DNA of 64,000 bases from DASRDR01 sp963812945 [NCBI: uncultured Candidatus Rokubacteria bacterium] (GTDB lineage: Bacteria > Methylomirabilota > Methylomirabilia > Rokubacteriales). The notes below the pieces were generated by a model. That model was given only the letters and a program-made list of their open reading frames with translations, had not been told where the DNA came from and did no database searches. The stretch spans positions 3,596,001 through 3,660,000 of the forward strand of contig CAWEXD010000008.1 of assembly GCA_963812945.1 (NCBI GenBank), given 5' to 3'. The position numbers were made by a program, and so were the translations under genes. Positions 3,215 to 58,202 of this stretch are shown here, piece by piece; within the stretch, counting starts at the first letter, position 1, and each line of letters starts with the position of its first letter.

Positions 3215-4450
3215 ATGGCCACGTCGCGATCGCGCCGGGAGCCCGAGCCGGCCGCCCCGTCCCCCCCGCCGGCGGCCCGTGAGCCCGGGCCGAGCACCCA
3301 ATCGGTACACGGCGGCGAGCCCCGTCAGCAGCTGGCAAGCGCGCTGACGTCGCCCATCGTCCAGACCGCCACGTACGCGTTCCGCGACAGCCAGGAGATC
3401 GCCGATCACTTCGAGGGGCGGGTCGAGCGGGACGAGTACGGGCGCTACGGCAATCCCACCCAGCGCGTGGCGGAGAAGAAGCTTGCCGCGCTCGAGGGCG
3501 CCCAGGAGGGTCTGCTCTTCGCGAGCGGGATGGCGGCCATCACGACCACGCTCTTCGCCATGCTGTCCAAGGGCGCGCACGTCGTCGTGACCGACGACGC
3601 GTACCGGCGGACCCGGCAGTTCCTGAACCAGGTCCTGCGGCGCTACGGGGTCGAGGTCACGACCGTGCCTGCCGGCGACTACGAGCGCATCGAGGAAGCG
3701 ATCCGCCGGACGACGCGCCTCGTGTTCAGCGAGTCGCCCACCAACCCGTACAACCGCGTCGTCGACCTCGAGCGCCTGGCCGAGCTGGGGCGCCGCCACC
3801 GGGTGAAGACGGTCATCGACTCCACCTTTGCGACCCCCATCAACCAGCGGCCGATCGAGTTCGGCATCGATCTGGTCATCCACTCCGCCACCAAGTACCT
3901 CGGCGGTCACAACGACCTGATGGCCGGCGCGGTCCTGGGAAGCCGGAACCTGGTGGGGGCGATCCGGGACCTCCACGCGGTGACCGGCGCGGTCCCCGAC
4001 CCGTTCGCGGCGTACCTCCTGATCCGCGGCATCAAGACCCTGGCGCTCCGCGTGACACGCCAGAACGAGAACGCCCAGCGGATCGCCGAGTTCCTGGAGG
4101 CCCACCCGAAGGTCGAGCGCGTGCACTATCCGGGCCTCAAGAGCCACCCGGAGCACGACCTCGCGCGACGGCAGATGCGGGGGTTCGGCGGGGTCGTCTC
4201 CTTCGAGGTGCGGGGGGACCTCGCCGCCGCCTCGCGCCTGGTCGACGCCTGTCGGATCCCGCGGATCGCCCCGTCGCTGGGTGGGGTGGAGAGCCTGATC
4301 GAGCAGCCCGCGCTCATGAGCTTCTACGAGCTGACGACGGAGGAGCGCCTCCAGATCGGGATCAGGGACTCACTGGTCCGCTACGCGGTGGGGGTCGAGG
4401 ACGGCGAGGACCTGGTGGCCGATCTCGACCAGGCGCTGGGCCACGTGTAG
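3215..4450 (+). CDS. metB: Cystathionine gamma-synthase / Cys-Met metabolism PLP enzyme
   Basis: The chosen ATG gives 411 residues; the open frame extends upstream into thrC but the usual family start lies here. After a Pro/Ala-rich N-terminal tail of about 35 residues, the fold type I body shows LTSPIVQTATYAF, RYGNPTQ and the PLP lysine motif HSATKYLGGH (Lys227). The C-terminus carries APSLGGVESLIEQPALMS. The family carries out gamma-replacement or elimination on homoserine esters or cystathionine. Sequence alone does not separate gamma-synthase from beta- or gamma-lyase; the neighbour thrC favours methionine biosynthesis. Ends exactly where the next ATG begins. Confidence 0.87.
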   Translation: MATSRSRREPEPAAPSPPPAAREPGPSTQSVHGGEPRQQLASALTSPIVQTATYAFRDSQEIADHFEGRVERDEYGRYGNPTQRVAEKKLAALEGAQEGLLFASGMAAITTTLFAMLSKGAHVVVTDDAYRRTRQFLNQVLRRYGVEVTTVPAGDYERIEEAIRRTTRLVFSESPTNPYNRVVDLERLAELGRRHRVKTVIDSTFATPINQRPIEFGIDLVIHSATKYLGGHNDLMAGAVLGSRNLVGAIRDLHAVTGAVPDPFAAYLLIRGIKTLALRVTRQNENAQRIAEFLEAHPKVERVHYPGLKSHPEHDLARRQMRGFGGVVSFEVRGDLAAASRLVDACRIPRIAPSLGGVESLIEQPALMSFYELTTEERLQIGIRDSLVRYAVGVEDGEDLVADLDQALGHV

Positions 4451-46594: not shown

Positions 46595-47053
46595 TCACCG
46601 AGGCGTCTGGCGATAGATCGGGCCGCGTGCACTGACGCGAGCGAGATCGGGCAAGTCCACCGTCTCGACACGGTGACCGCGGGGATGCAGGGGGCGCGCA
46701 TCGAGCCCGAGTCGCGCGATGACCGTCGGGTGGCTGTAGTACCCGTTGTACGTATGCCGCACCAGCGCCTCGAAGAACTCGGCGTGCGACTGCTCGACGC
46801 GACGGAGCACGTTCTCGCGGTCATCGACGCCCAACGACGCCAGGCCGGCCGCCCCGAGGGCGCGGCTCGCCTCCTCCACCGCCTGCAGCCCATCGACGAG
46901 GAGAGCGTCGACATCGGCCGATGCCGCGGCCATGGCGAGGACGTGGTCGACCGCTACCGCGCCGGCGCCCGGGAAGCCGCCGCTCGCGGGAACCAGCACG
47001 TCCAGCACCAGCGCCAGCGAGTCCCGCCGCGCGGCCAGTGTCGGTCGCGTCAC
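46595..47053 (-). CDS. Gluconate 2-dehydrogenase subunit 3-like protein (GMC dehydrogenase small subunit)
   Basis: The 152-residue GTG-started protein overlaps the GMC gene end (GTGA). It has the short helical pattern of subunit 3 of membrane-bound FAD sugar dehydrogenases, including ALVRHTYNGYYSHPTVIARLG, the most recognisable stretch. No clear signal peptide is present, though such subunits often have a Tat signal. It is probably needed to mature or export the catalytic subunit. No cytochrome c subunit follows. Confidence 0.78.
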   Translation of the reverse strand: MTRPTLAARRDSLALVLDVLVPASGGFPGAGAVAVDHVLAMAAASADVDALLVDGLQAVEEASRALGAAGLASLGVDDRENVLRRVEQSHAEFFEALVRHTYNGYYSHPTVIARLGLDARPLHPRGHRVETVDLPDLARVSARGPIYRQTPR

Positions 47054-48648
47054 GAGCGCCTCCGGATCATCCCGTCGGCGATGTAGAGGGCCACCGCCTG
47101 GATCGTCGAGGTGGGATTCACCCCGGCGCAGGTCACCATCGTGCTGCCGTCCACGATGTAGAGATTGGGCACGTCGTGGCAGCGACCCTCGGCGTCGATC
47201 ACCGAGGTGGACGGATCTCGCCCCATGCGCGCCGTCCCCATCAGGTGCCAGCCCCCGGCTCGCAGGAGCGGATTGGTCGAGACCTCCCGAGCGCCCGCCG
47301 CCAGCAGCGCCTCGCTCGCGCGTGCGATCCCGTGATCGAGCATGCGCCGGCTGTTCTCGCTGAGGGTATAGGACACGCGCGGCGCCGGGATCCCGTGGCC
47401 GTCGGTGAGAGCGGGGTCGAGGTCCACACGATTGCTCGGTTCGGGCAGATCCTCGGCGATGACCGCGACCGTGATCGTGCGATCGAAGCGCTCGTCGTAG
47501 GCGCGGCGGTGCTCGCGACCCCAGGGCACGCGGTCGCCGATGAATCCACCGCGGGCCGAGGCGATCGGCGAGAGTCCCCGCGCGACCTGGAACGAGTAGC
47601 CGCGCACGAAGCCGCGCGAGAGATCCGTCTCGTAGAACTCCTGGCTGATGAGGCTGCAGCCCTGAGGACCCCGGTAACCGCCGAGGGGCCTATCGAAGAC
47701 GCCGCGCACCATCGCGTAGGGGTGGAACATGAGATTCCGGCCGACCAGCCCGCTGCGGTTCGCCAGCCCGTCCGGGAACGACGCCGAGCGCGAATTCAGC
47801 AGGAGCCGCGGAGTGCCGATCCCGTTGGCGGCCACGACCACCGCGCGTGCCTTCTGCTCGCACAGGCGCCCCTTGCCGTCGTAGTAGATGGCGCCGCCGG
47901 CCCGGCCGTCCGGGCGGAGCGTGATCTCTCGCACGCGGGCCCGTGTCTCGAGCCGCGCGCCCAGGGCCAGCGCCTTGGGCCAGTAGGTGATGTCGGTGCT
48001 GGCCTTGGCCCCGGTCGGACAGCCGAGGTCGCACGGTCCGCAGTTGATGCAGGCCCGGCGGCCGTCGTGGTCCCGCGTGAGGATGGCGCTGTCCGACGGC
48101 CACCAGTGCCAGCCCAGGCGATCGAAGCCCCGGGCCATGGTCGCCCCCAGCGTATCCAGCGGGACCGGCGGCGTCTGCCGCGGCGACTTCGGGGGGTACG
48201 CGGGGTCCCCGGTGACTCCGGCCACGCCCATCATCCGGTCGTTCAGGTCGAAGAAGGGCTCGAGCGTGGCGTAGTCGACCGGCCAGTCGTCGGCCACGCC
48301 GTCGAGACTCTGTACGCGAAAGTCCGAGGGGTGGAAGCGCGGAAAGTGAGCGCTCCAATGGATCGTGCTCCCGCCCACCGCGTTGTACATCAGCGGCGCG
48401 ATCGGCGACCCCGCGTCGTTGACCGGATAGTCCTGGGGGAGCCGTCGCACGTTGGGCTCGGCACTCCAGTCGGTGTCGCGATGCAGCTCCCAGTCAGTCG
48501 CCCAGTGCGGATAGGCGCGCGGGTCGACCCAGTCCCCCTGCTCCAGGCACACCACGCCGACGCCAGCTCGCGCGAGCGTCCAGGCGACAGCCGCGCCGGC
48601 TGCGCCGGCGCCGATCACGAGCACGTCGGTCCGATCGTCTCCGGCCAC
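47050..48648 (-). CDS. GMC-family FAD dehydrogenase with ferredoxin-like cysteine motif
   Basis: The 532-residue GTG-started protein has the N-terminal FAD motif VLVIGAGAAGAAVAWTLARAG, GGSTIHWSAHFPRF and the C-terminal active-site pattern WHLMGTARMG...NPTSTIQAVALYIADG. A CxxCxxCxxxCP motif (Cys200, 203, 206, 210) interrupts the substrate region, like the iron-sulfur-bearing sugar dehydrogenases. With the small subunit it is likely a polyol, sugar or sugar-acid dehydrogenase donating electrons to the respiratory chain. Substrate unknown. Confidence 0.87.
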   Translation of the reverse strand: MAGDDRTDVLVIGAGAAGAAVAWTLARAGVGVVCLEQGDWVDPRAYPHWATDWELHRDTDWSAEPNVRRLPQDYPVNDAGSPIAPLMYNAVGGSTIHWSAHFPRFHPSDFRVQSLDGVADDWPVDYATLEPFFDLNDRMMGVAGVTGDPAYPPKSPRQTPPVPLDTLGATMARGFDRLGWHWWPSDSAILTRDHDGRRACINCGPCDLGCPTGAKASTDITYWPKALALGARLETRARVREITLRPDGRAGGAIYYDGKGRLCEQKARAVVVAANGIGTPRLLLNSRSASFPDGLANRSGLVGRNLMFHPYAMVRGVFDRPLGGYRGPQGCSLISQEFYETDLSRGFVRGYSFQVARGLSPIASARGGFIGDRVPWGREHRRAYDERFDRTITVAVIAEDLPEPSNRVDLDPALTDGHGIPAPRVSYTLSENSRRMLDHGIARASEALLAAGAREVSTNPLLRAGGWHLMGTARMGRDPSTSVIDAEGRCHDVPNLYIVDGSTMVTCAGVNPTSTIQAVALYIADGMIRRRS

Positions 48649-48967: not shown

Positions 48968-49034
48968 GTGGTGGAAGTGCTGGAAAGACTGGAGCCGACG
49001 ATCGGACTTGGACCGATGACCTGTCGACTACGAA
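48968..49034 (-). repeat. Degenerate 3' half of tRNA-Thr: left att-like site
   Basis: These 67 bp match 58105-58171 at 62 positions, in the same orientation, 9137 bp apart. Bases 48990-49034 correspond to tRNA nucleotides 32 to 76, that is from the first base of the anticodon loop to CCA; 22 bp more match beyond the 3' end. Similarity stops at once on the anticodon-stem side. It lacks the 5' half, so it cannot be a functional tRNA. This is the displaced copy expected at the far end of a tRNA-integrated element. Confidence 0.85.
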
Positions 49035-51267: not shown

Positions 51268-51531
51268 ATGGGCAAGGGTGGTGCCGATCCGCAAAGGCTC
51301 AAGGCGAAGGTTCGGGCGGTCCAGCTCAACACCGCGGGCTTGCTCAAGCTTCTCGGTGGCACCGATGACGACAAGTGGCGGTTCTGGGAGATCTTGAAAG
51401 GGATCACCACGCCAGTCCAGCTGCGCCTCGTCGAGAATCAGCTCGACGGCATGAGGTCGCTCGTCGCGCAGGCCCAGGCGAGTGCGAAGACGATCGAGAA
51501 GACGGCCCGGGCAATCTCGGCGGGCGGCTAG
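51268..51531 (+). CDS. Small helical protein of unknown function, first gene of the YcaO set
   Basis: The ATG follows CCGGAGGAACGAA, a strong ribosome site. The 87-residue product is predicted helical, with KLLGGTDDDKWRFWEILKGI in the middle and LVAQAQASAKTIEKTARAIS at the end. It has no cysteine and ends in Gly-Gly. RiPP leader peptides are short, helical and often end at Gly-Gly, but no core sequence follows the GG here, so a leader role is speculation. An accessory or scaffold protein for the YcaO enzyme is equally possible. It ends 22 bp before the YcaO start. Confidence 0.72.
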   Translation: MGKGGADPQRLKAKVRAVQLNTAGLLKLLGGTDDDKWRFWEILKGITTPVQLRLVENQLDGMRSLVAQAQASAKTIEKTARAISAGG

Positions 51532-51553
51532 TCCGACCCGAACCGATCCACGG

Positions 51554-53437
51554 GTGGCCACGCGGATGGCCGCGCGCCATCTGCCTCACGGATCCGTCCT
51601 CGTCATCGGCGCCAGACGTGAAGAGGCACTGGGCCGGAGTCTTGCGAAGGCGCTCGGGGCGACGGTTCGGTCTTCACCGGACCCGCCTCTAGCCGCGCCC
51701 AATCCGTCTGCGAAGCTCGCCGTCCGCGTGAGCACAACCGGCGACGGTGAGGCGGAACGCGTGTTCGCCGCGTGGGCGCGAGCGGTCGGATTGCCGGCGC
51801 TCAGCGTGGTGCTCGAAGCCCACCAGGCATTGATCGGTCCGCTCGCGTTGTCGCGGAGACCCGGGTGCGGCTATTGCGCCTGGGCGCGCAGGCTCGCAGC
51901 AGCGGCGGCTGATTCGCGCTCCACCAGCAGTCCAGGGACCGCGGATTCGCTGCTGAACATCGCCAGTCCGGTGCTGGTGCGCGAGATCCGCACTGTCCTT
52001 CGCCAGGGCCCGGAGACTTCGTGTCTGCTCGACCACGTGCTGGCTGTCGAAGCCGAGACCGGGCAAGAGTCGCTCCATCGTGTCATTCCTCTCCCCCGCT
52101 GTGCCATCTGCGGCGGCGCGGCTGCTTTCCCACGGTCGGATCGAGACACCGTGCGGCTGTCCCCCGACGATCCTCTGGAGGTCGTGCTAGGCGAGCTCGC
52201 CGGCTGGGTCGATCCGCGGACCGGGGTTATCTCGCGGATCGTGCTGGAACAACCGACCGATACGGGAGTAGAGCTGCCTCTGGTCGCCACGGCCGCTCCT
52301 CCGCACATCGTGGAGGAGGAGGGCTCGTTGCGGCGCCTACCGATCGGCTGGGGCAAGGGCTTCACCGTGTCGGGCACGATCCTCTCCGCCGTCGGCGAAG
52401 CGATCGAGCGCTATGCGCCCTCGCTGCCCGACCTCGCGCGGTTCGTCTGGGAGCGTCCGGGAGACCTCGACGGTGACTTCCTTGATCCCCGAGCCTGCCC
52501 CCTCTACACGGACTCTCAGTACGACCGCGACGGATTCCCCTATGTCCGCTTCGATCCGAGCGTTCGCCATCCGTGGGTGCTCGGCCGGTGGCTGCGCGAC
52601 GATGCTCCGGTCTGGGTCCCCGCGATCCTCGTCTTTCAATCGCTCACACTGCGGCGGGAACACCTGATCTGCCAGGGAACCTCCAACGGGCTCGCCGCCG
52701 CGGCGGATCTCGAGGAGGCCGCGCTACGCGCGACGCTGGAACTGGTCGAACGCGACGCCTTCATGGCGGCCTGGCTCACCGGGTGCCCCGGCCAGCGAGT
52801 CGAGCTCGACGACGATCCTTCACTCCTCCGCGTGCTCAACGGCATCGCAGCCCTCGGAGCCGCGGTGGAGCTCTACGTGCTGCCAACGAGCGCCTGCGGC
52901 ACGACGGCGCTGTGCCTCGCGCTCGGCGACGGCGACCGGTATCCGGGCGTCACCATCGGTCTCGGCGCCGATCTCGATCCGCGCGTCGCTTTCCGGCAGG
53001 CGATCCTCGAGCTCGGCCAGACCGGTCCTCACCTGCGCCGCATGATGCGCGCGAGTGTATTACCGGCGCCGGGCGACCCTCACGACGTGCACGAGATGCT
53101 CCACCACGCGTCCTACTATTTTCCCTCCGAGCGCACGACCGCTTTCGATCGCCTACGCAGCAGCCGGCCGCGCATTTCCTTCCGCGACCTCGCCGCCGGC
53201 GAGCAGGAGCGGTCGTTGGGGAGCTGCGCGTCCGCTCTGGAGAAAGCGTCCGTCCGCGTCGCGCTGGTCGACGTCACCTCGCCCGACGTGGCGACCGGCC
53301 CGTTCCGCGTCGTGCGCGCGGTGAGCCCCGACCTCCAACCGATCTCGTATGGTTACGGTTTCGAGCGCCGGCCAGTGGAACGGATCCTCGCGCGAGGTCT
53401 CGCCTCACCAATTCCCGACGTTCATCCAATCTGGTGA
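51554..53437 (+). CDS. YcaO-domain azoline-forming cyclodehydratase (SagD/TOMM type) with N-terminal cysteine domain
   Basis: From the GTG at 51554 (an ATG at 51566 is also possible) the protein has 627 residues. The N-terminal 200 residues form a Rossmann-like domain (VLVIGARREEALGRSL) with two CxxC pairs, Cys105/Cys108 and Cys183/Cys186, as in the zinc-bearing partner domain fused to many TOMM cyclodehydratases. The YcaO domain shows ATP/Mg motifs GEAIERY (Glu282, Glu285), QGTSNGLAA and DLEEAALRATLELVERDAF. The tail is Pro-rich (SPIPDVHPIW). The family uses ATP to turn Cys, Ser or Thr of a peptide into azolines, or in some members to thioamidate. Codon use is less GC-extreme than surrounding genes. 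Confidence 0.9.
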   Translation: MATRMAARHLPHGSVLVIGARREEALGRSLAKALGATVRSSPDPPLAAPNPSAKLAVRVSTTGDGEAERVFAAWARAVGLPALSVVLEAHQALIGPLALSRRPGCGYCAWARRLAAAAADSRSTSSPGTADSLLNIASPVLVREIRTVLRQGPETSCLLDHVLAVEAETGQESLHRVIPLPRCAICGGAAAFPRSDRDTVRLSPDDPLEVVLGELAGWVDPRTGVISRIVLEQPTDTGVELPLVATAAPPHIVEEEGSLRRLPIGWGKGFTVSGTILSAVGEAIERYAPSLPDLARFVWERPGDLDGDFLDPRACPLYTDSQYDRDGFPYVRFDPSVRHPWVLGRWLRDDAPVWVPAILVFQSLTLRREHLICQGTSNGLAAAADLEEAALRATLELVERDAFMAAWLTGCPGQRVELDDDPSLLRVLNGIAALGAAVELYVLPTSACGTTALCLALGDGDRYPGVTIGLGADLDPRVAFRQAILELGQTGPHLRRMMRASVLPAPGDPHDVHEMLHHASYYFPSERTTAFDRLRSSRPRISFRDLAAGEQERSLGSCASALEKASVRVALVDVTSPDVATGPFRVVRAVSPDLQPISYGYGFERRPVERILARGLASPIPDVHPIW

Positions 53438-53446
53438 CGTCAAGAG

Positions 53447-53647
53447 ATGCCCCAACAGGGAACGCTGCCGCTGGTCGCGGCGCCGCCATGCTCCGCACCA
53501 CAGCCGACCGCTGAGGCACCGGGCAGCCCAATCACCTCCACATTGGCGGCCCGCCGGTACAACACCCAGGGGTCGCTTGCGGCCCCGGACTTCCGGAGCC
53601 CGGTGGACCGCCGGGCGACTCTGAGATCCGAGCCCTCATCGGTCTAG
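53447..53647 (+). CDS. Small Ser/Thr/Pro-rich ORF after the YcaO gene, candidate precursor peptide
   Basis: An ATG 9 bp after the YcaO stop, with AAGAG before it, opens a 66-residue frame. The product is rich in Ser, Thr, Pro and Ala and has one Cys (LVAAPPCSAPQPTAEAPG). It fills most of the gap to the 750-residue gene. Position right after a cyclodehydratase and composition fit a RiPP precursor, but it lacks an obvious leader/core boundary and could be a chance frame in GC-rich DNA. Confidence 0.35.
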   Translation: MPQQGTLPLVAAPPCSAPQPTAEAPGSPITSTLAARRYNTQGSLAAPDFRSPVDRRATLRSEPSSV

Positions 53648-53681
53648 GGAAGCGGGGAAAACTCCAGAGAGGAGACAGGGT

Positions 53682-55934
53682 ATGGCCGAAAAGGGAAGGC
53701 GCCCGACCCAAGCCTCACAGCCCGACGACAGTGGAAGCGATCCCGAGCTTCGATTCGCGCTGAAGGAACTGCTGGCGGCCTTTGAACCGGTCATCGCGGA
53801 GAATCTCGACCTGGCACGGGCTCCGGACAAGATTCAAGATCCAGGCGACCAGCGGGACTGCGAGGCGGAGATCGCCCTCGCGAACCGCATCTTCGGCAAG
53901 TTCTGGAGCGAGAAGGTCGCGCTCGCCATTCTCCCGAAGGAGGCGGTCGAGAAGTTCGGCCCGATCGACAAATGGCGATGGTGCTTCCTGCACATCCGCT
54001 GTTGCATCATCTTCGGCTGGCTGTTGTGCCACGGCCCGCGCGGGATTCGCGGTTTCAGCTACTACCTGTACCGGTATTGGCGCTGCGTGCGCGAGGTGCT
54101 CGGGCGGCCGGTGTCCAATCCGCCCACAGTGGTCGAGCAAAAGGATTTTCAGACGTTGGTCGGTGCCTTGGCCACGGCCTACCGGCCGTACCTCGGCGAG
54201 CAGATGTCAGCCGCCGACGCTGCCACTCGAATCGCCGACGAGGTGATCGCCGGCACAATCGATTGCACCGCCGAAGAAGGAGACGCAGCCGCCGCCTTCG
54301 AGCGAATGCTGACCCCCGCCACGGCAGAGGCTCTGCTGGGCGCGGAGGCGTTTGCCGCGCACCGGCAGGATCCATTCTTCTGGTTCTGTCGCTGCTGGTG
54401 CCTGTGCGCGATCCGCTTCGGATGCTGCCTGGCGCGTGCCCATAGCGTGGCTGAGTTCCTCCGTTGCCTGCGTTTCTATCGACGCTGCCTGCGCGATTGC
54501 TTCCAGCCCCTGACTTGTGACCTGACGGCGCCGACCGATTGCGTCGAGGAGGTCACGATCCAGGATCTTCCGGGCTTCCTCGTCCCGGTGATGGGCACGG
54601 CGGGAGGCGCGGGGTTCTCCCACTATGCCCTCGAATGGTCGACGAACGGCATCGTGTACCACGCGGACAGCTTCTACTATCCGCCGATTCCTCCCGGCAA
54701 CACCGTCCAGGGCACCATTCCGGTCTTCGGCGGATTGCTGGCCTACTTCGACACGACTCTCCAGAATCCGGGTCCGCACTGGATTCGCCTGACCGCGTTC
54801 TCGGTGACTGGCGAGAAGTGCGTCAGGACAACATTCTTCGAGCTGTCAAAGAACGACGTGAGGATTCTCGGCGTGGGCGGCCACTTCACCCTCGACACGG
54901 GGTGGGCCGATCCCGCCGCGAAGTTCGTCGAGACCGTGCCCGCACTGTGCACTCGGCCGACGAGCGTCGAGGAGGTCTCCTTCGGCGGATGCCTCTCCGT
55001 GAGCGGCGGAGCGTTCGTGGGCGGGTGCGAAGGCAAGAGCGTCAAGCGGTATCTCCTGGAATACAAGGCCGGTATCGATACGAGTTGCGTCAGCGGCGGC
55101 TGGACGAAGTTCTGGGAAATCATCTACGCCACCCCGTCCCAGAACCGCTGGATCAACTGGCGCACCGACTCCTCCGTGCTGACGAGCACGTGGGTCGACG
55201 ACTGCTACATTCCCACGTTCATTCCGCCGTTCTGCTCGCCGTTTCGCAAGGTGGATCCGCTCTCGTTGCTGTCGCCTGACTGTTGGGCCACTGTCCTGGG
55301 AGGGTGCCAGTTGAGCGGACTCTTCACGATCCGCCTGACGGTCGAGGCGACCGACGGCACCACCTACTGCGATACGCAGCGGATGTGGCTCGACAACAAG
55401 CCGATCTGCGGGCGCATTCGCATCGACGCGGTTCCCAAGTGCGCGGACCTCTTTGTCAGCAAGTTCGCCCTGCCCCCGGACTGCTCCGTTCCGTGGAGTC
55501 TGCCGGTGTCCGGAATCGCCTTCGACCCGCTGATCGACTCGGGGATGCTGGCCACTCGTCCAAACGACAACTTTGACTTCTACACCGTGACAGTGACGAA
55601 GCAGGGTGGCCCCTCGCTGAGCATTCCGATTCCGGGCCCGGGCGGCGCGTGCTTCTACGGGACGTCGCGTGTCGGCTACTGCCAGCTGTGCCCGGGTGAT
55701 CCGCCGCCCGTGGGCGATGGCTTCGGGACGCTCGCGCACTTCGACTTGCGCGCCGTCGACCCGCTGTGCAGCGCTTCCCTTCCCTATGCCGTCCCGGCGG
55801 GATTCACGATTCCGCGGGGCGACTGCTGCGTGTACACGTTCCACGTCTACACGCAGGATCGGACGATCACGCCGGGCGGCGTTCACTGGGCCACAGATGT
55901 GTGGCCGGTGAAGATTTGCAACGATCTCAGGTAG
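53682..55934 (+). CDS. Large cysteine- and aromatic-rich protein of unknown function with a duplicated module
   Basis: A GAGAGGAG site precedes the ATG; 750 residues, no signal peptide. Residues about 27-145 and 155-280 look like two copies of one module. Each ends in a Trp/Cys-rich block: KWRWCFLHIRCCIIFGWLLC (97-116) with YRYWRCVREVLGRP (130-143), and FFWFCRCWCLCAIRFGCC (232-249) with RFYRRCLRDCFQPL (264-277). About 18 cysteines occur in the first 290 residues. The remainder (285-750) is beta-rich, with Ig/fibronectin-like strands such as HWIRLTAFSVTGEKC and GLFTIRLTVEATDGTTYC, and further cysteines. I do not recognise the family. Its cysteines make it a conceivable YcaO substrate or structural partner. 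Confidence 0.85.
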   Translation: MAEKGRRPTQASQPDDSGSDPELRFALKELLAAFEPVIAENLDLARAPDKIQDPGDQRDCEAEIALANRIFGKFWSEKVALAILPKEAVEKFGPIDKWRWCFLHIRCCIIFGWLLCHGPRGIRGFSYYLYRYWRCVREVLGRPVSNPPTVVEQKDFQTLVGALATAYRPYLGEQMSAADAATRIADEVIAGTIDCTAEEGDAAAAFERMLTPATAEALLGAEAFAAHRQDPFFWFCRCWCLCAIRFGCCLARAHSVAEFLRCLRFYRRCLRDCFQPLTCDLTAPTDCVEEVTIQDLPGFLVPVMGTAGGAGFSHYALEWSTNGIVYHADSFYYPPIPPGNTVQGTIPVFGGLLAYFDTTLQNPGPHWIRLTAFSVTGEKCVRTTFFELSKNDVRILGVGGHFTLDTGWADPAAKFVETVPALCTRPTSVEEVSFGGCLSVSGGAFVGGCEGKSVKRYLLEYKAGIDTSCVSGGWTKFWEIIYATPSQNRWINWRTDSSVLTSTWVDDCYIPTFIPPFCSPFRKVDPLSLLSPDCWATVLGGCQLSGLFTIRLTVEATDGTTYCDTQRMWLDNKPICGRIRIDAVPKCADLFVSKFALPPDCSVPWSLPVSGIAFDPLIDSGMLATRPNDNFDFYTVTVTKQGGPSLSIPIPGPGGACFYGTSRVGYCQLCPGDPPPVGDGFGTLAHFDLRAVDPLCSASLPYAVPAGFTIPRGDCCVYTFHVYTQDRTITPGGVHWATDVWPVKICNDLR

Positions 55935-55938
55935 GGAC

Positions 55939-56268
55939 ATGATCGCGGAGGCGGGCGCCGGCGAATTCGTCATTCGATTCGCTGTCTGCTCGCTCGCCGC
56001 CTGGCGCCTCACTCACCTGATCGTATCGGAGGACGGGCCGGGCGACCTCATCGCCGGCCTGCGGCGGGGGCTCGGCGCGGGCTTCTGGGGGCGATTGATG
56101 GACTGCTTCTACTGCCTGTCGGCGTGGGTGGCCGCTCCCCTGGCATTCGTCGTGGCGCGCAGCTACAGCGAGCTGCTTCTGGTGTGGCTCGCCCTGTCGG
56201 CTGCGGCTTGCTTGCTCGAGCGGACCACCGCGCCGCCCGTCATGATTCGGCGATCCGATCAGGATTGA
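55939..56268 (+). CDS. Small membrane protein, DUF1360-like
   Basis: The 109-residue protein starts 4 bp after the large gene. It has the pattern of the DUF1360 family: an N-terminal helix with AAWRLTHLIVSEDGPGDLI, an amphipathic Arg-rich segment, the CxxC in MDCFYCLSAWVAAPLAF (Cys56, Cys59), then a second hydrophobic region (LLLVWLALSAAACLL). Members occur in phages and in bacterial genomes and are of unknown function. Its place after the cysteine-rich protein suggests a membrane anchor or exporter-like role for that product. Confidence 0.75.
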   Translation: MIAEAGAGEFVIRFAVCSLAAWRLTHLIVSEDGPGDLIAGLRRGLGAGFWGRLMDCFYCLSAWVAAPLAFVVARSYSELLLVWLALSAAACLLERTTAPPVMIRRSDQD

Positions 56269-56281
56269 AAAGAGGAGCGAA

Positions 56282-56581
56282 ATGGCTTGTTGTGGACAGA
56301 ATCGCTCATCGGCCGAGGCGACCGTGTCGGCTGCCCCAGCGTACGTTGGGACACACGCCAGTGGCCGAGCCTCCCGCGCACCCGCGTTTCAGTCCCGGCC
56401 GGCACCGGCAACGGCCGATACCGTGACTCTCCGCAGCCGCGACCGTGGCTCGACCGTCGTGACCGGGCCGGTGAGCGGGCAGCGTTACCAGTTCCCCGCC
56501 GGAATGTCGATGGTCGCCATCGATCGCCGCGATGCCCAGCGGCTCGTGGACACGGGCCTGTTCGAGCGCGTCTGGGGCTAG
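56282..56581 (+). CDS. Small protein beginning MACCGQ, unknown function
   Basis: An AAGAGGAG site lies 6 bp before the ATG. The 99-residue product has a vicinal Cys pair at positions 3-4 (MACCGQNRSS), a low-complexity Ser/Ala/Pro stretch to about residue 45, then a folded part with VVTGPVSGQRYQFPAGM and VAIDRRDAQRLVDTGLFERV. Short proteins of this layout are found in phage and phage-like structural clusters, as I recall them; this is not proven here. The CC pair makes it another possible substrate for the cyclodehydratase. Confidence 0.7.
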   Translation: MACCGQNRSSAEATVSAAPAYVGTHASGRASRAPAFQSRPAPATADTVTLRSRDRGSTVVTGPVSGQRYQFPAGMSMVAIDRRDAQRLVDTGLFERVWG

Positions 56582-56641
56582 GGCCGTCGAGCGTTCGGCG
56601 CGTGCGCTATGAACCCTCACGTCCAGCCGAAAGGAGTTGCC

Positions 56642-56797
56642 ATGATCAGCGTAGCGGCCGGAGCCCACCTGGACGTGGCGGTGGATCATCCGGCGGGGCC
56701 GGAGCCTCGGGAGAGTTCTGAGCTCCGCGAGACGCCCGCTCGCGTTGGAACCGGCGGCGAACCTGGCTGCGCACGCCACCGGCCGCATTCCAGATGA
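56642..56797 (+). CDS. Short ORF with strong ribosome site at the end of the YcaO set, probably truncated
   Basis: GAAAGGAG lies 6 bp before an ATG at 56642. The 51-residue frame starts MISVAAGAHLDVAVDHPAGP and then turns Arg/Pro-rich and unfold-like. It overlaps the 3' end of the convergent ATP-grasp gene. The good ribosome site and the first residues suggest the start of a seventh gene cut off by a rearrangement or frameshift. Confidence 0.33.
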   Translation: MISVAAGAHLDVAVDHPAGPEPRESSELRETPARVGTGGEPGCARHRPHSR

Positions 56798-57965
56798 ACG
56801 GCCACGGATCGGACCGGCTCCAGACGCCCAGGGACGCGGCTCGCCGGAGCGCGGAGAAGGCCTCCGGCAACTGGCGCCAGGCGCGCCGCCCGCCTTTGGC
56901 GAGTCCGAAGAGGTAGGGTTTCTCCCAGACCCAGCCGACGCCGTCGGCATACGACGACTCGACGGCGAGCGGCTGGCCCGTATGCAGCCGGTACAGAAGC
57001 GTGGCCACGTCGAATCCCAGGACCGTGCAAAGCCCGACCATCCCGGCCACGCGGGGATCGATCTTCATGAGCACCAGCGCACCATCGGACGGGCGGCGCC
57101 GGTACTCGACCGTGACGACACCCGTCAACCGCACGCGGGCGACCAGGGCGGCGGTGGCGGCGACCGCCTCATCGTCGTGCGTGCTCTCGCAATGGACGTT
57201 GCCCCCGTACCAGTGTCCACCCAGCTGGAAGTAGGGGTAGAGCTTGAGGCGACGGACCACGCGATGGCCGATCGGCCGGTGTCCGTCGTCCGCGAGCATG
57301 ACCACCCCGACGCAGTCGCGTGCCTCTCCCGGCACGACCTCCTGAACCATCGGCGGCCCGCCGCACCGTCGGGACAAGTCGGCCGCAATGCGTTGTGCGG
57401 ACGCCAGGTCCCCTCCGGCCGGCACGGTGAAGCGGACGTTCTGGGGATCGGCAGGCTCGACGCCCGTTGGAGGCACGCTGAACAAGTAGCGCCGGCGCGC
57501 GAAGTCGAGTCCCCGCAGGAGGCGGTCCAGCTCGTCCACGCCCTCGGGGACGAAGAATACCGGCGTGCGGAGCGGGATCGTCGCCGCGAGCCGGTACAGT
57601 TTCGCCTTGTCCAGTGCCGTCTCGAGCACATCCCAGGAAGGAACGGTCATGACGAACCGGCAGGCCAGACGGTCGCGATGGCGGGCGACGATGCGCAGAT
57701 AGTGGTCGCTCGTCGGAATCAGGACCGCCTGGTCCACTCCCTCCAGCGACTCGAGGAACGCCAGCGTCTCCTCGGCGTCGTCGGTATCGAGCAGGTGGGC
57801 CCAGCTGGGCAGCCTGGAATGGAGACCCGGCGCGTACTTGTAGCGATCGACGACAGTGACCTTCACGCCGGCGTTGGCGAGGGATCGAAGCATCGCCAGA
57901 CCGCGCGGATGCTCGACTCCGAGCACGACGGCCGGACGCGCGACGTCGAGGGCCGGCAGGACCAT
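56646..57965 (-). CDS. ATP-grasp family protein
   Basis: From the ATG at 57965 the protein has 439 residues. The N-terminal domain (AVVLGVEHPRGLAMLRSLANAG, VTVVDRYKYAPGLHSRL) and the central lid resemble carbamoyl-phosphate-synthase-like ATP-grasp ligases. The Mg/ATP region is GVVTVEYRRRPSDGALVLMKIDPRVAG, though the usual Glu-x-Asn is Lys-Ile-Asp here. Such proteins ligate a carboxylate to an amine or thiol, often in small-molecule or peptide tailoring. It lies between the YcaO genes and the tRNA and faces them. The C-terminal 40 residues are Arg/Pro-rich and may be out of family. Confidence 0.8.
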   Translation of the reverse strand: MVLPALDVARPAVVLGVEHPRGLAMLRSLANAGVKVTVVDRYKYAPGLHSRLPSWAHLLDTDDAEETLAFLESLEGVDQAVLIPTSDHYLRIVARHRDRLACRFVMTVPSWDVLETALDKAKLYRLAATIPLRTPVFFVPEGVDELDRLLRGLDFARRRYLFSVPPTGVEPADPQNVRFTVPAGGDLASAQRIAADLSRRCGGPPMVQEVVPGEARDCVGVVMLADDGHRPIGHRVVRRLKLYPYFQLGGHWYGGNVHCESTHDDEAVAATAALVARVRLTGVVTVEYRRRPSDGALVLMKIDPRVAGMVGLCTVLGFDVATLLYRLHTGQPLAVESSYADGVGWVWEKPYLFGLAKGGRRAWRQLPEAFSALRRAASLGVWSRSDPWPFIWNAAGGVRSQVRRRFQRERASRGAQNSPEAPAPPDDPPPRPGGLRPLR

Positions 57966-58104
57966 GAGGCTCCCGTGGGTTGCGCGACGACAATACCACG
58001 ACGACCGATCGGGGGAGCGTCGGCCGACCCCACGGGTGCCCCCCTCGGCGCCACCTTGATCGCAGCCGGGGGCTGCGGCGGTTGGCAGGTGCGGCGGCGT
58101 GGAG

Positions 58105-58171
58105 GTGGTGGAGGTGATGGAAAGGCTGGAGCCGACGATCGGACTTGAACCGATGACCTGTCGATTACGAA
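58105..58171 (-). repeat. Right att-like site: tRNA-Thr 3' half plus 22 bp
   Basis: This block is the counterpart of 48968-49034 (62 of 67 bases match). It spans tRNA nucleotides 32-76 and 22 bp beyond the 3' end. Here the tRNA is complete, so after integration the gene kept function at this end. Confidence 0.85.
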
Positions 58172-58202
58172 TCGACTGCTCTACCAACTGAGCTACGTCG
58201 GC
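58127..58202 (-). tRNA. tRNA-Thr(CGU)
   Basis: The 76-nt gene folds into a full cloverleaf: acceptor GCCGACG/CGTCGGC, D arm GCTC-AGTTGGTA-GAGC, anticodon stem GTCGA/TCGAC with loop TTCGTAA (anticodon CGT, reading ACG), T arm ATCGG-TTCAAGT-CCGAT, discriminator T and encoded CCA. It reads codon ACG, which is common in this GC-rich genome. It is the apparent attachment site of the island to its left. Confidence 0.97.

Follow-up and report, generated by a model that had tools for sequence, protein, structure and literature searches.

Two separate gene sets, a YcaO pair and a cysteine-rich cassette, on a probable tRNA-Thr island of an uncultured Rokubacteriales bacterium

Do the co-directional genes around a YcaO cyclodehydratase gene of an uncultured Rokubacteriales bacterium (DASRDR01 sp963812945, contig CAWEXD010000008.1) form one biosynthetic system? 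The window, by which we mean the whole stretch of 64,000 nucleotides that was analysed, carries on one strand open reading frames (ORFs) for an 87-residue protein, the YcaO, a 750-residue protein rich in cysteine and tryptophan, a DUF1360-like membrane protein and a small protein named MACCGQ, all of them correctly listed by a sequence-only reading that took them for a single YcaO-centred set. That observation is real but mis-grouped, and what adjoin here are two distinct gene sets, neither of them characterised, instead of a single new biosynthetic system. Judged by genome comparison, the 87-residue and YcaO genes are a two-gene unit kept in other bacteria, and the other three genes (here the triad) are a separate cassette dispersed over many phyla. 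The sequence-only reading overlooked the YcaO/87-residue partnership, the separateness of the cassette and a direct repeat of tRNA-Thr that encloses them both. The best explanation, to which we give about even chances, is that of two independent modules on a probable tRNA-Thr island, with the YcaO modifying the 87-residue protein.

The pairing is found in four loci, namely the window and three Acidobacteriota genomes (G202, G566 and G727), in all of which the two genes are adjacent, in identical order and separated by no more than about 75 nt; in G566 and G727 they overlap by 11 nt if the first start codon is used. The homologues are 53–55% identical to the window's 87-residue protein, and the corresponding YcaOs 47–52% identical to the window enzyme. 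The G202 homologue, directly 5′ of its YcaO gene, matches at 57% over 77 residues (E 1.5e-25). Some YcaO match occurs in 18 of 294 Acidobacteriota genomes, full-length (at 48%) only in G202. When 399 genomes of the class of G202 were searched, close YcaO relatives (E ≤ 1e-60, a cut-off that hides weaker YcaOs) and members of the 87-residue family (E ≤ 0.001) were both found in the identical three genomes, G202, G566 and G727, and the remaining 396 had neither, a pattern that makes the small protein an obligate-looking partner of the enzyme. Thirty of its 87 residues are invariant in all four sequences, including Gly-Ile-Thr-Thr-Pro (GITTP) at residues 45–49, and the C-terminus is variable. It has no match to Pfam or NCBIfam families at E below 0.05, nor to plasmids, phages or viral contigs. 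The neighbours of the pair in the three genomes are ordinary, the nine genes scanned including TonB, glycosidases, TruA, a pyridoxal phosphate enzyme, MFS, SprT-like and GNAT proteins.

The enzyme had been read from the sequence alone as a SagD/YcaO cyclodehydratase with a four-Cys N-terminal domain, and it is indeed a fused YcaO cyclodehydratase, with intact motifs. It matches PF02624 (E 1.1e-59) in a Pfam scan, and its N-terminal part matches TIGR03882, the leader peptide-binding model of thiazole/oxazole-modified microcin (TOMM) precursors, at 41.3 bits against a cut-off of 36.9. The TIGR03882 match is present in all four relatives (window, G202, G566, G727), and in their alignment none of the four N-terminal Cys (CxxC, CxxC) varies. 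The motifs GKG...EAIERY and TSNG...ELVERD, which we take to be those of the ATP site, align with TruD and LynD. Both enzymatic parts known from TOMM clusters are thus found in one chain, the leader-binding C protein as the fused N-terminal part and the D protein as PF02624 with these motifs. No viral sequences match the window YcaO, and the 19 plasmid records that do reach 31% identity at best.

The triad has a quite different distribution. Relatives of the 750-residue protein occur in 17 other genomes from many phyla. A first contig scan, which relied on six peptide patterns taken from the window's 750-residue protein and was therefore biased to close relatives, gave 15 loci, titled Terriglobia, NC10/Methylomirabilota, Acidobacteria, Bryobacteraceae, Rhodospirillales, Kiloniellales, Opitutales, Rhodothermaceae, Deferribacteres, Deltaproteobacteria and Burkholderiales. 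By blastp over these loci with flanks of about 1 to 8 kb (E ≤ 0.01), the DUF1360 gene is present in 13 and the MACCGQ gene in 14, in identical order (L005 lacks both, L010 the DUF1360 gene), and the 87-residue protein, the YcaO and a 66-residue ORF that follows YcaO in the window are each present in none. Two further genomes, G272 and G335, have the complete triad without a YcaO in loci of 5.3 kb, bringing the totals beside a 750-residue homologue to 15 of 17 loci for DUF1360, 16 of 17 for MACCGQ and 0 of 17 for a window-type YcaO. An all-against-all comparison revealed no other family common to most triad loci. The triad is rare, occurring in 4 of 95 Methylomirabilota and 3 of 297 Acidobacteriota genomes, one of the latter as a 24-bit partial match. 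It was absent from all three of the pair genomes G202, G566 and G727, and though such an empty search proves little by itself, the same query did find the triad in other genomes. Pair and triad each occur without the other, and the triad is most likely cargo independent of the YcaO pair.

What the modules have in common in the window is their position, both lying within 9.2 kb between a tRNA-Thr gene and a direct repeat of its 3′ end (Table 1). The intact tRNA faces the insert, at the far end of which its last 45 nt and the 22 nt that follow recur in unchanged orientation. Integration at a tRNA 3′ end leaves such an arrangement behind, and the stretch is a probable genomic island. The enclosed DNA has a G+C content of 0.670, compared to 0.712 and 0.713 outside, and G+C at third codon positions is 0.73–0.85 in seven island genes and 0.89–0.96 in seven flanking genes.

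Within the pair, we infer at about even odds that the 87-residue protein is the dedicated substrate of the fused cyclodehydratase. The enzyme, joining leader-binding and YcaO parts, would take hold of the small protein and, at the cost of ATP, activate a backbone amide in it, most likely within the invariant GITTP, giving an azoline, a thioamide or a similar change. The product would not be cut, oxidised or exported by neighbouring gene products and would work as a modified protein in the cell. As the sequence-only reading had observed, no flavin dehydrogenase, protease or exporter is seen among the island ORFs scanned with Pfam (seven, the response regulator and the ATP-grasp-like gene, then ten more, which is not every ORF); a GMC flavoprotein gene at 47050–48648 lies outside the repeat pair. 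Likewise, no TfuA match, the mark of YcaO-TfuA thioamidation, was found among these ORFs or the nine neighbour genes scanned in G202, G566 and G727. There is precedent for such a modification in E. coli, where, according to PMC13063428, YcaO thioamidates the ribosomal protein uL16, and recognition of long, folded precursors is reportedly a subject of PMC12455567. More tentatively, the pair may form a system of two genes whose fused leader-binding YcaO makes a lasting change, at GITTP, to the backbone of a conserved protein of the cell that is its dedicated target and no secreted peptide. RiPP (ribosomally synthesised and post-translationally modified peptide) machinery would then serve protein modification, and would be able to move between phyla.

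Several findings weigh against this account. The SagD model TIGR03604 gives the YcaO 210.8 bits, about 8 bits under its cut-off of 219.25. The pair loci number only four, and G566 and G727 have common surroundings, which leaves three independent contexts. In G202 the pair has a SprT-like peptidase and an MFS transporter in its vicinity, though not demonstrably in one operon with it. In the window, pair and triad are co-directional and only 244 bp apart, terminators between them do not exceed chance level (nor do promoter predictions), and a joint function in this single lineage is possible. The 87-residue protein has no Cys and lacks the variable Cys/Ser/Thr-rich core of a TOMM precursor, no search for a distant precursor having been made. 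Lastly, the ORFs scanned include no integrase, and an empty site is missing from 30 Methylomirabilota tRNA-Thr loci, none of which has the flanks of the window; in the closest relative found, G362, with an 88% identical GMC protein, the contig stops about 500 bp beyond the GMC gene that the two have in common. This GMC match, together with threonine synthases 78% identical in several genomes of the phylum of G002, points to Methylomirabilota as the probable origin of the window.

Two alternatives carry some weight. In the first, the 87-residue protein is an accessory of the YcaO, a scaffold, chaperone or regulator, and the true substrate comes from a gene in another part of the genome. We regard this as somewhat unlikely. 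A strongly conserved body that contains no Cys and no hypervariable core would suit an accessory, and cases of TOMM precursor genes at a distance from the enzyme gene are on record (PMC4603692); on the other hand, genes directly 5′ of TOMM enzymes are often those of the precursor, and a leader-binding part is already built into this enzyme. In the second, the repeat is an old duplicated tRNA fragment rather than an attachment site and there is no island, which the missing integrase and empty site would favour; the geometry of the repeat and the composition of the enclosed genes, which differs from that of the flanks, argue against it, and we think it somewhat unlikely too.

A third alternative is that the genes are one functional unit after all, the YcaO modifying Cys, Ser or backbone positions of the 750-residue or MACCGQ protein. 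The sequence-only reading had proposed such targets and had made the co-occurrence of YcaO with the 750-residue, DUF1360 and MACCGQ genes in other genomes the test of its grouping. The genes do share a direction and a repeat pair, and the neighbours of the YcaO are rich in Cys, but the triad travels without a window-type YcaO in every other locus found, and PF02624 of any kind is absent from 13 of 15 triad genomes, occurring in only two. The window YcaO matches nothing in G335, and in G272 it has just a partial counterpart, 28% identical and on another contig. Furthermore, the same Cys are conserved without a YcaO, since 17 of the 18 in residues 1–290 of the 750-residue protein are invariant in 16 of 16 aligned rows and the remaining one is kept in 15. 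We therefore consider a single unit improbable and YcaO action on either of these proteins disfavoured; the idea that the enzyme acts on a protein, not a peptide, survives with the 87-residue protein as its likely target. An ordinary linear azol(in)e peptide cluster with the 66-residue ORF as its precursor is more improbable still, for though this ORF directly follows YcaO and is rich in Ser and Thr, an equal or longer plus-strand ORF arises in 22% of simulated 244-bp gaps, its codon-position composition is not coding-like (G+C at second positions 0.67), it matches no family and blastp finds no homologue of it, either across the 15 loci of the triad (E ≤ 0.01) or behind the YcaO gene of G202 (best E 0.57). 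Its place in the gene set of the sequence-only reading is not confirmed.

Table 1. Features of the two modules and of the enclosing repeat, in window coordinates
Feature	Coordinates	Strand	Remarks
87-residue protein	51268..51531	+	Module 1; probable YcaO substrate; homologues directly upstream of YcaO in G202, G566, G727
Fused YcaO cyclodehydratase	ORF 51482..53437; likely start ATG 51566 (inferred)	+	Module 1; leader-binding N-terminal part and YcaO
66-residue ORF	53447..53647	+	Probably no gene; length and composition at chance expectation; no family match
750-residue Cys/Trp-rich protein	53682..55934	+	Module 2; duplicated helical N-terminal half and Ig-like beta domains
DUF1360 membrane-type protein, 109 residues	55939..56268	+	Module 2; PF07098 29.1 bits
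MACCGQ protein, 99 residues	56282..56581	+	Module 2; adjoins 750-residue homologue in 16/17 loci
Response regulator with AraC-type helix-turn-helix	49222..50157	-	PF00072 76 bits, PF12833 84 bits; within repeat pair
ATP-grasp-like protein	56646..58049	-	PF15632 20.5 bits, below cut-off 29.1; within repeat pair
Far-end direct repeat of tRNA-Thr 3′ part	48968..49034	-	62/67 bases identical to 58105..58171
Repeat copy over 3′ end of intact tRNA-Thr	58105..58171	-	Overlaps tRNA
tRNA-Thr (cgt), intact	58127..58202	-	ARAGORN; RF00005 73.5 bits

Links of the response regulator and the ATP-grasp-like gene to either module are unproven, and the ORF at 56609–56797 has no family match. Several loci (L003, L074, L010 and the window) have a response-regulator gene close to the triad, of kinds that differ, such as a sigma-54 type in L074 and an AraC type in the window; these are common genes and their presence is possibly due to chance.

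The proteins of the triad give some indication of what it might be. The 750-residue protein contains 38 Cys and 20 Trp, in agreement with its first description, and its family aligns over its length at 38–71% identity to the window protein. Residues 1–290 are a duplicated helical domain, the halves of which match at E 5e-7 in a pairwise test, and the remainder appears as Ig-like beta-sandwich in an AlphaFold2 model (mean pLDDT 72.5, pTM 0.52). A profile search of the PDB gave only antibody Ig domains (E ≥ 0.015), and Foldseek gave long matches of low TM score to Ig-like/cadherin-like repeats (best 6xi3, E 5.6e-8, TM 0.15–0.24); these structural matches are weak, thus we use only the general fold class. 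The DUF1360-like protein was rightly named, scoring above the PF07098 cut-off of 21, and its family keeps EDGP and CxxC motifs in the triad loci. In the MACCGQ family the N-terminal M and CCG are invariant in 15 of 15 rows and are followed by a small C-terminal domain, the model of which (mean pLDDT 71) has no PDB match below E 0.05. Neither this protein nor the 750-residue one has a family match in the libraries searched. Taken together, the triad is probably an assembly associated with the cell envelope or with a particle, its head helical and rich in Cys and its stalk Ig-like, and no YcaO substrate. A second, divergent protein in G003 (L026, G003:C190) matches only positions 281–777 of the 750-residue profile and has a different N-terminal half.

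Two ideas about the spread of the triad were considered and set aside. In L074 (G335:C10, 11773–17365), genes for a protealysin-like M4 peptidase, emfourin, DUF3467 and then a contractile tail sheath lie downstream of the triad, the contractile-tail cluster (sheath PF04984, PF17482) falling within about 5 kb after it. A phage origin was not adopted from this one locus, eight other flank genes scanned having shown nothing of the kind; nor does the 750-residue protein match any phage, plasmid or viral contig. Integration at tRNAs as a general habit was likewise dropped, for although tRNAs are present in 3 of the 15 loci and in G335, a repeat test at them found nothing in L003, L004 and G335 and only a 17-bp repeat in L007, which does not enclose the triad. 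That repeat, of the 3′ end of a tRNA-Ser, lies some 950 bp downstream of it (2405–2494 and 3444–3460) and is itself a small integration footprint.

How does the pair compare to known systems? It is like the fused cyclodehydratases of TOMM clusters (TruD, LynD, SagC/D type) in having a YcaO fold, the same motifs and a fused leader-binding part with CxxC/CxxC, and differs from them in that no heteroatom-rich precursor, dehydrogenase or transporter was recognised beside the window YcaO, whose partner is a conserved Cys-free protein. With protein-modifying YcaOs (E. coli YcaO on uL16; methyl-coenzyme M reductase thioamidation) it shares a conserved intact protein as the proposed target, though the E. 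coli enzyme, as PMC13063428 has it, lacks a RiPP recognition element and binds a tertiary surface, whereas that of the window includes a leader-binding part and is accompanied by a neighbour dedicated to it. Mobilisin-type TOMM clusters also place a short peptide poor in Cys, Ser and Thr near a fused cyclodehydratase, a likeness that involves no sequence comparison, and, unlike the window set, carry a B (dehydrogenase) protein (PMC4603692). The DUF1360 protein, for its part, resembles DUF1360/phrog_781 by family match and differs in being fixed beside the 750-residue and MACCGQ proteins. In separate loci, YcaO clusters from different phyla (L100 of G090, a 16001-bp stretch, and L078 on a Paracoccus plasmid) have alike Cys-repeat precursors and a SagB-like gene, and look like ordinary azole clusters.

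The literature searched contains no description of such an 87-residue/YcaO pair or of the whole combination, as had been supposed from the sequence alone, though this is weak evidence of absence given that preprints and subscription papers are little covered. DUF1360 is named in a single paper of that literature. What emerges is a modest but new pairing of a YcaO with a small partner and, beside it, an unrelated cassette, rich in Cys, that crosses the boundaries of phyla. The latter is a puzzle, in that its Cys-rich 750-residue protein, which has no family name, keeps company with the same two small proteins in many phyla. As for the former, whole-protein substrates of YcaO enzymes are few; uL16 is the second thioamidated protein and more are expected, according to PMC13063428. 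An enzyme that has RiPP leader-binding equipment yet travels with one conserved protein would bridge the two uses of the family, and the 87-residue/YcaO pair is a ready two-gene system in which to test this.

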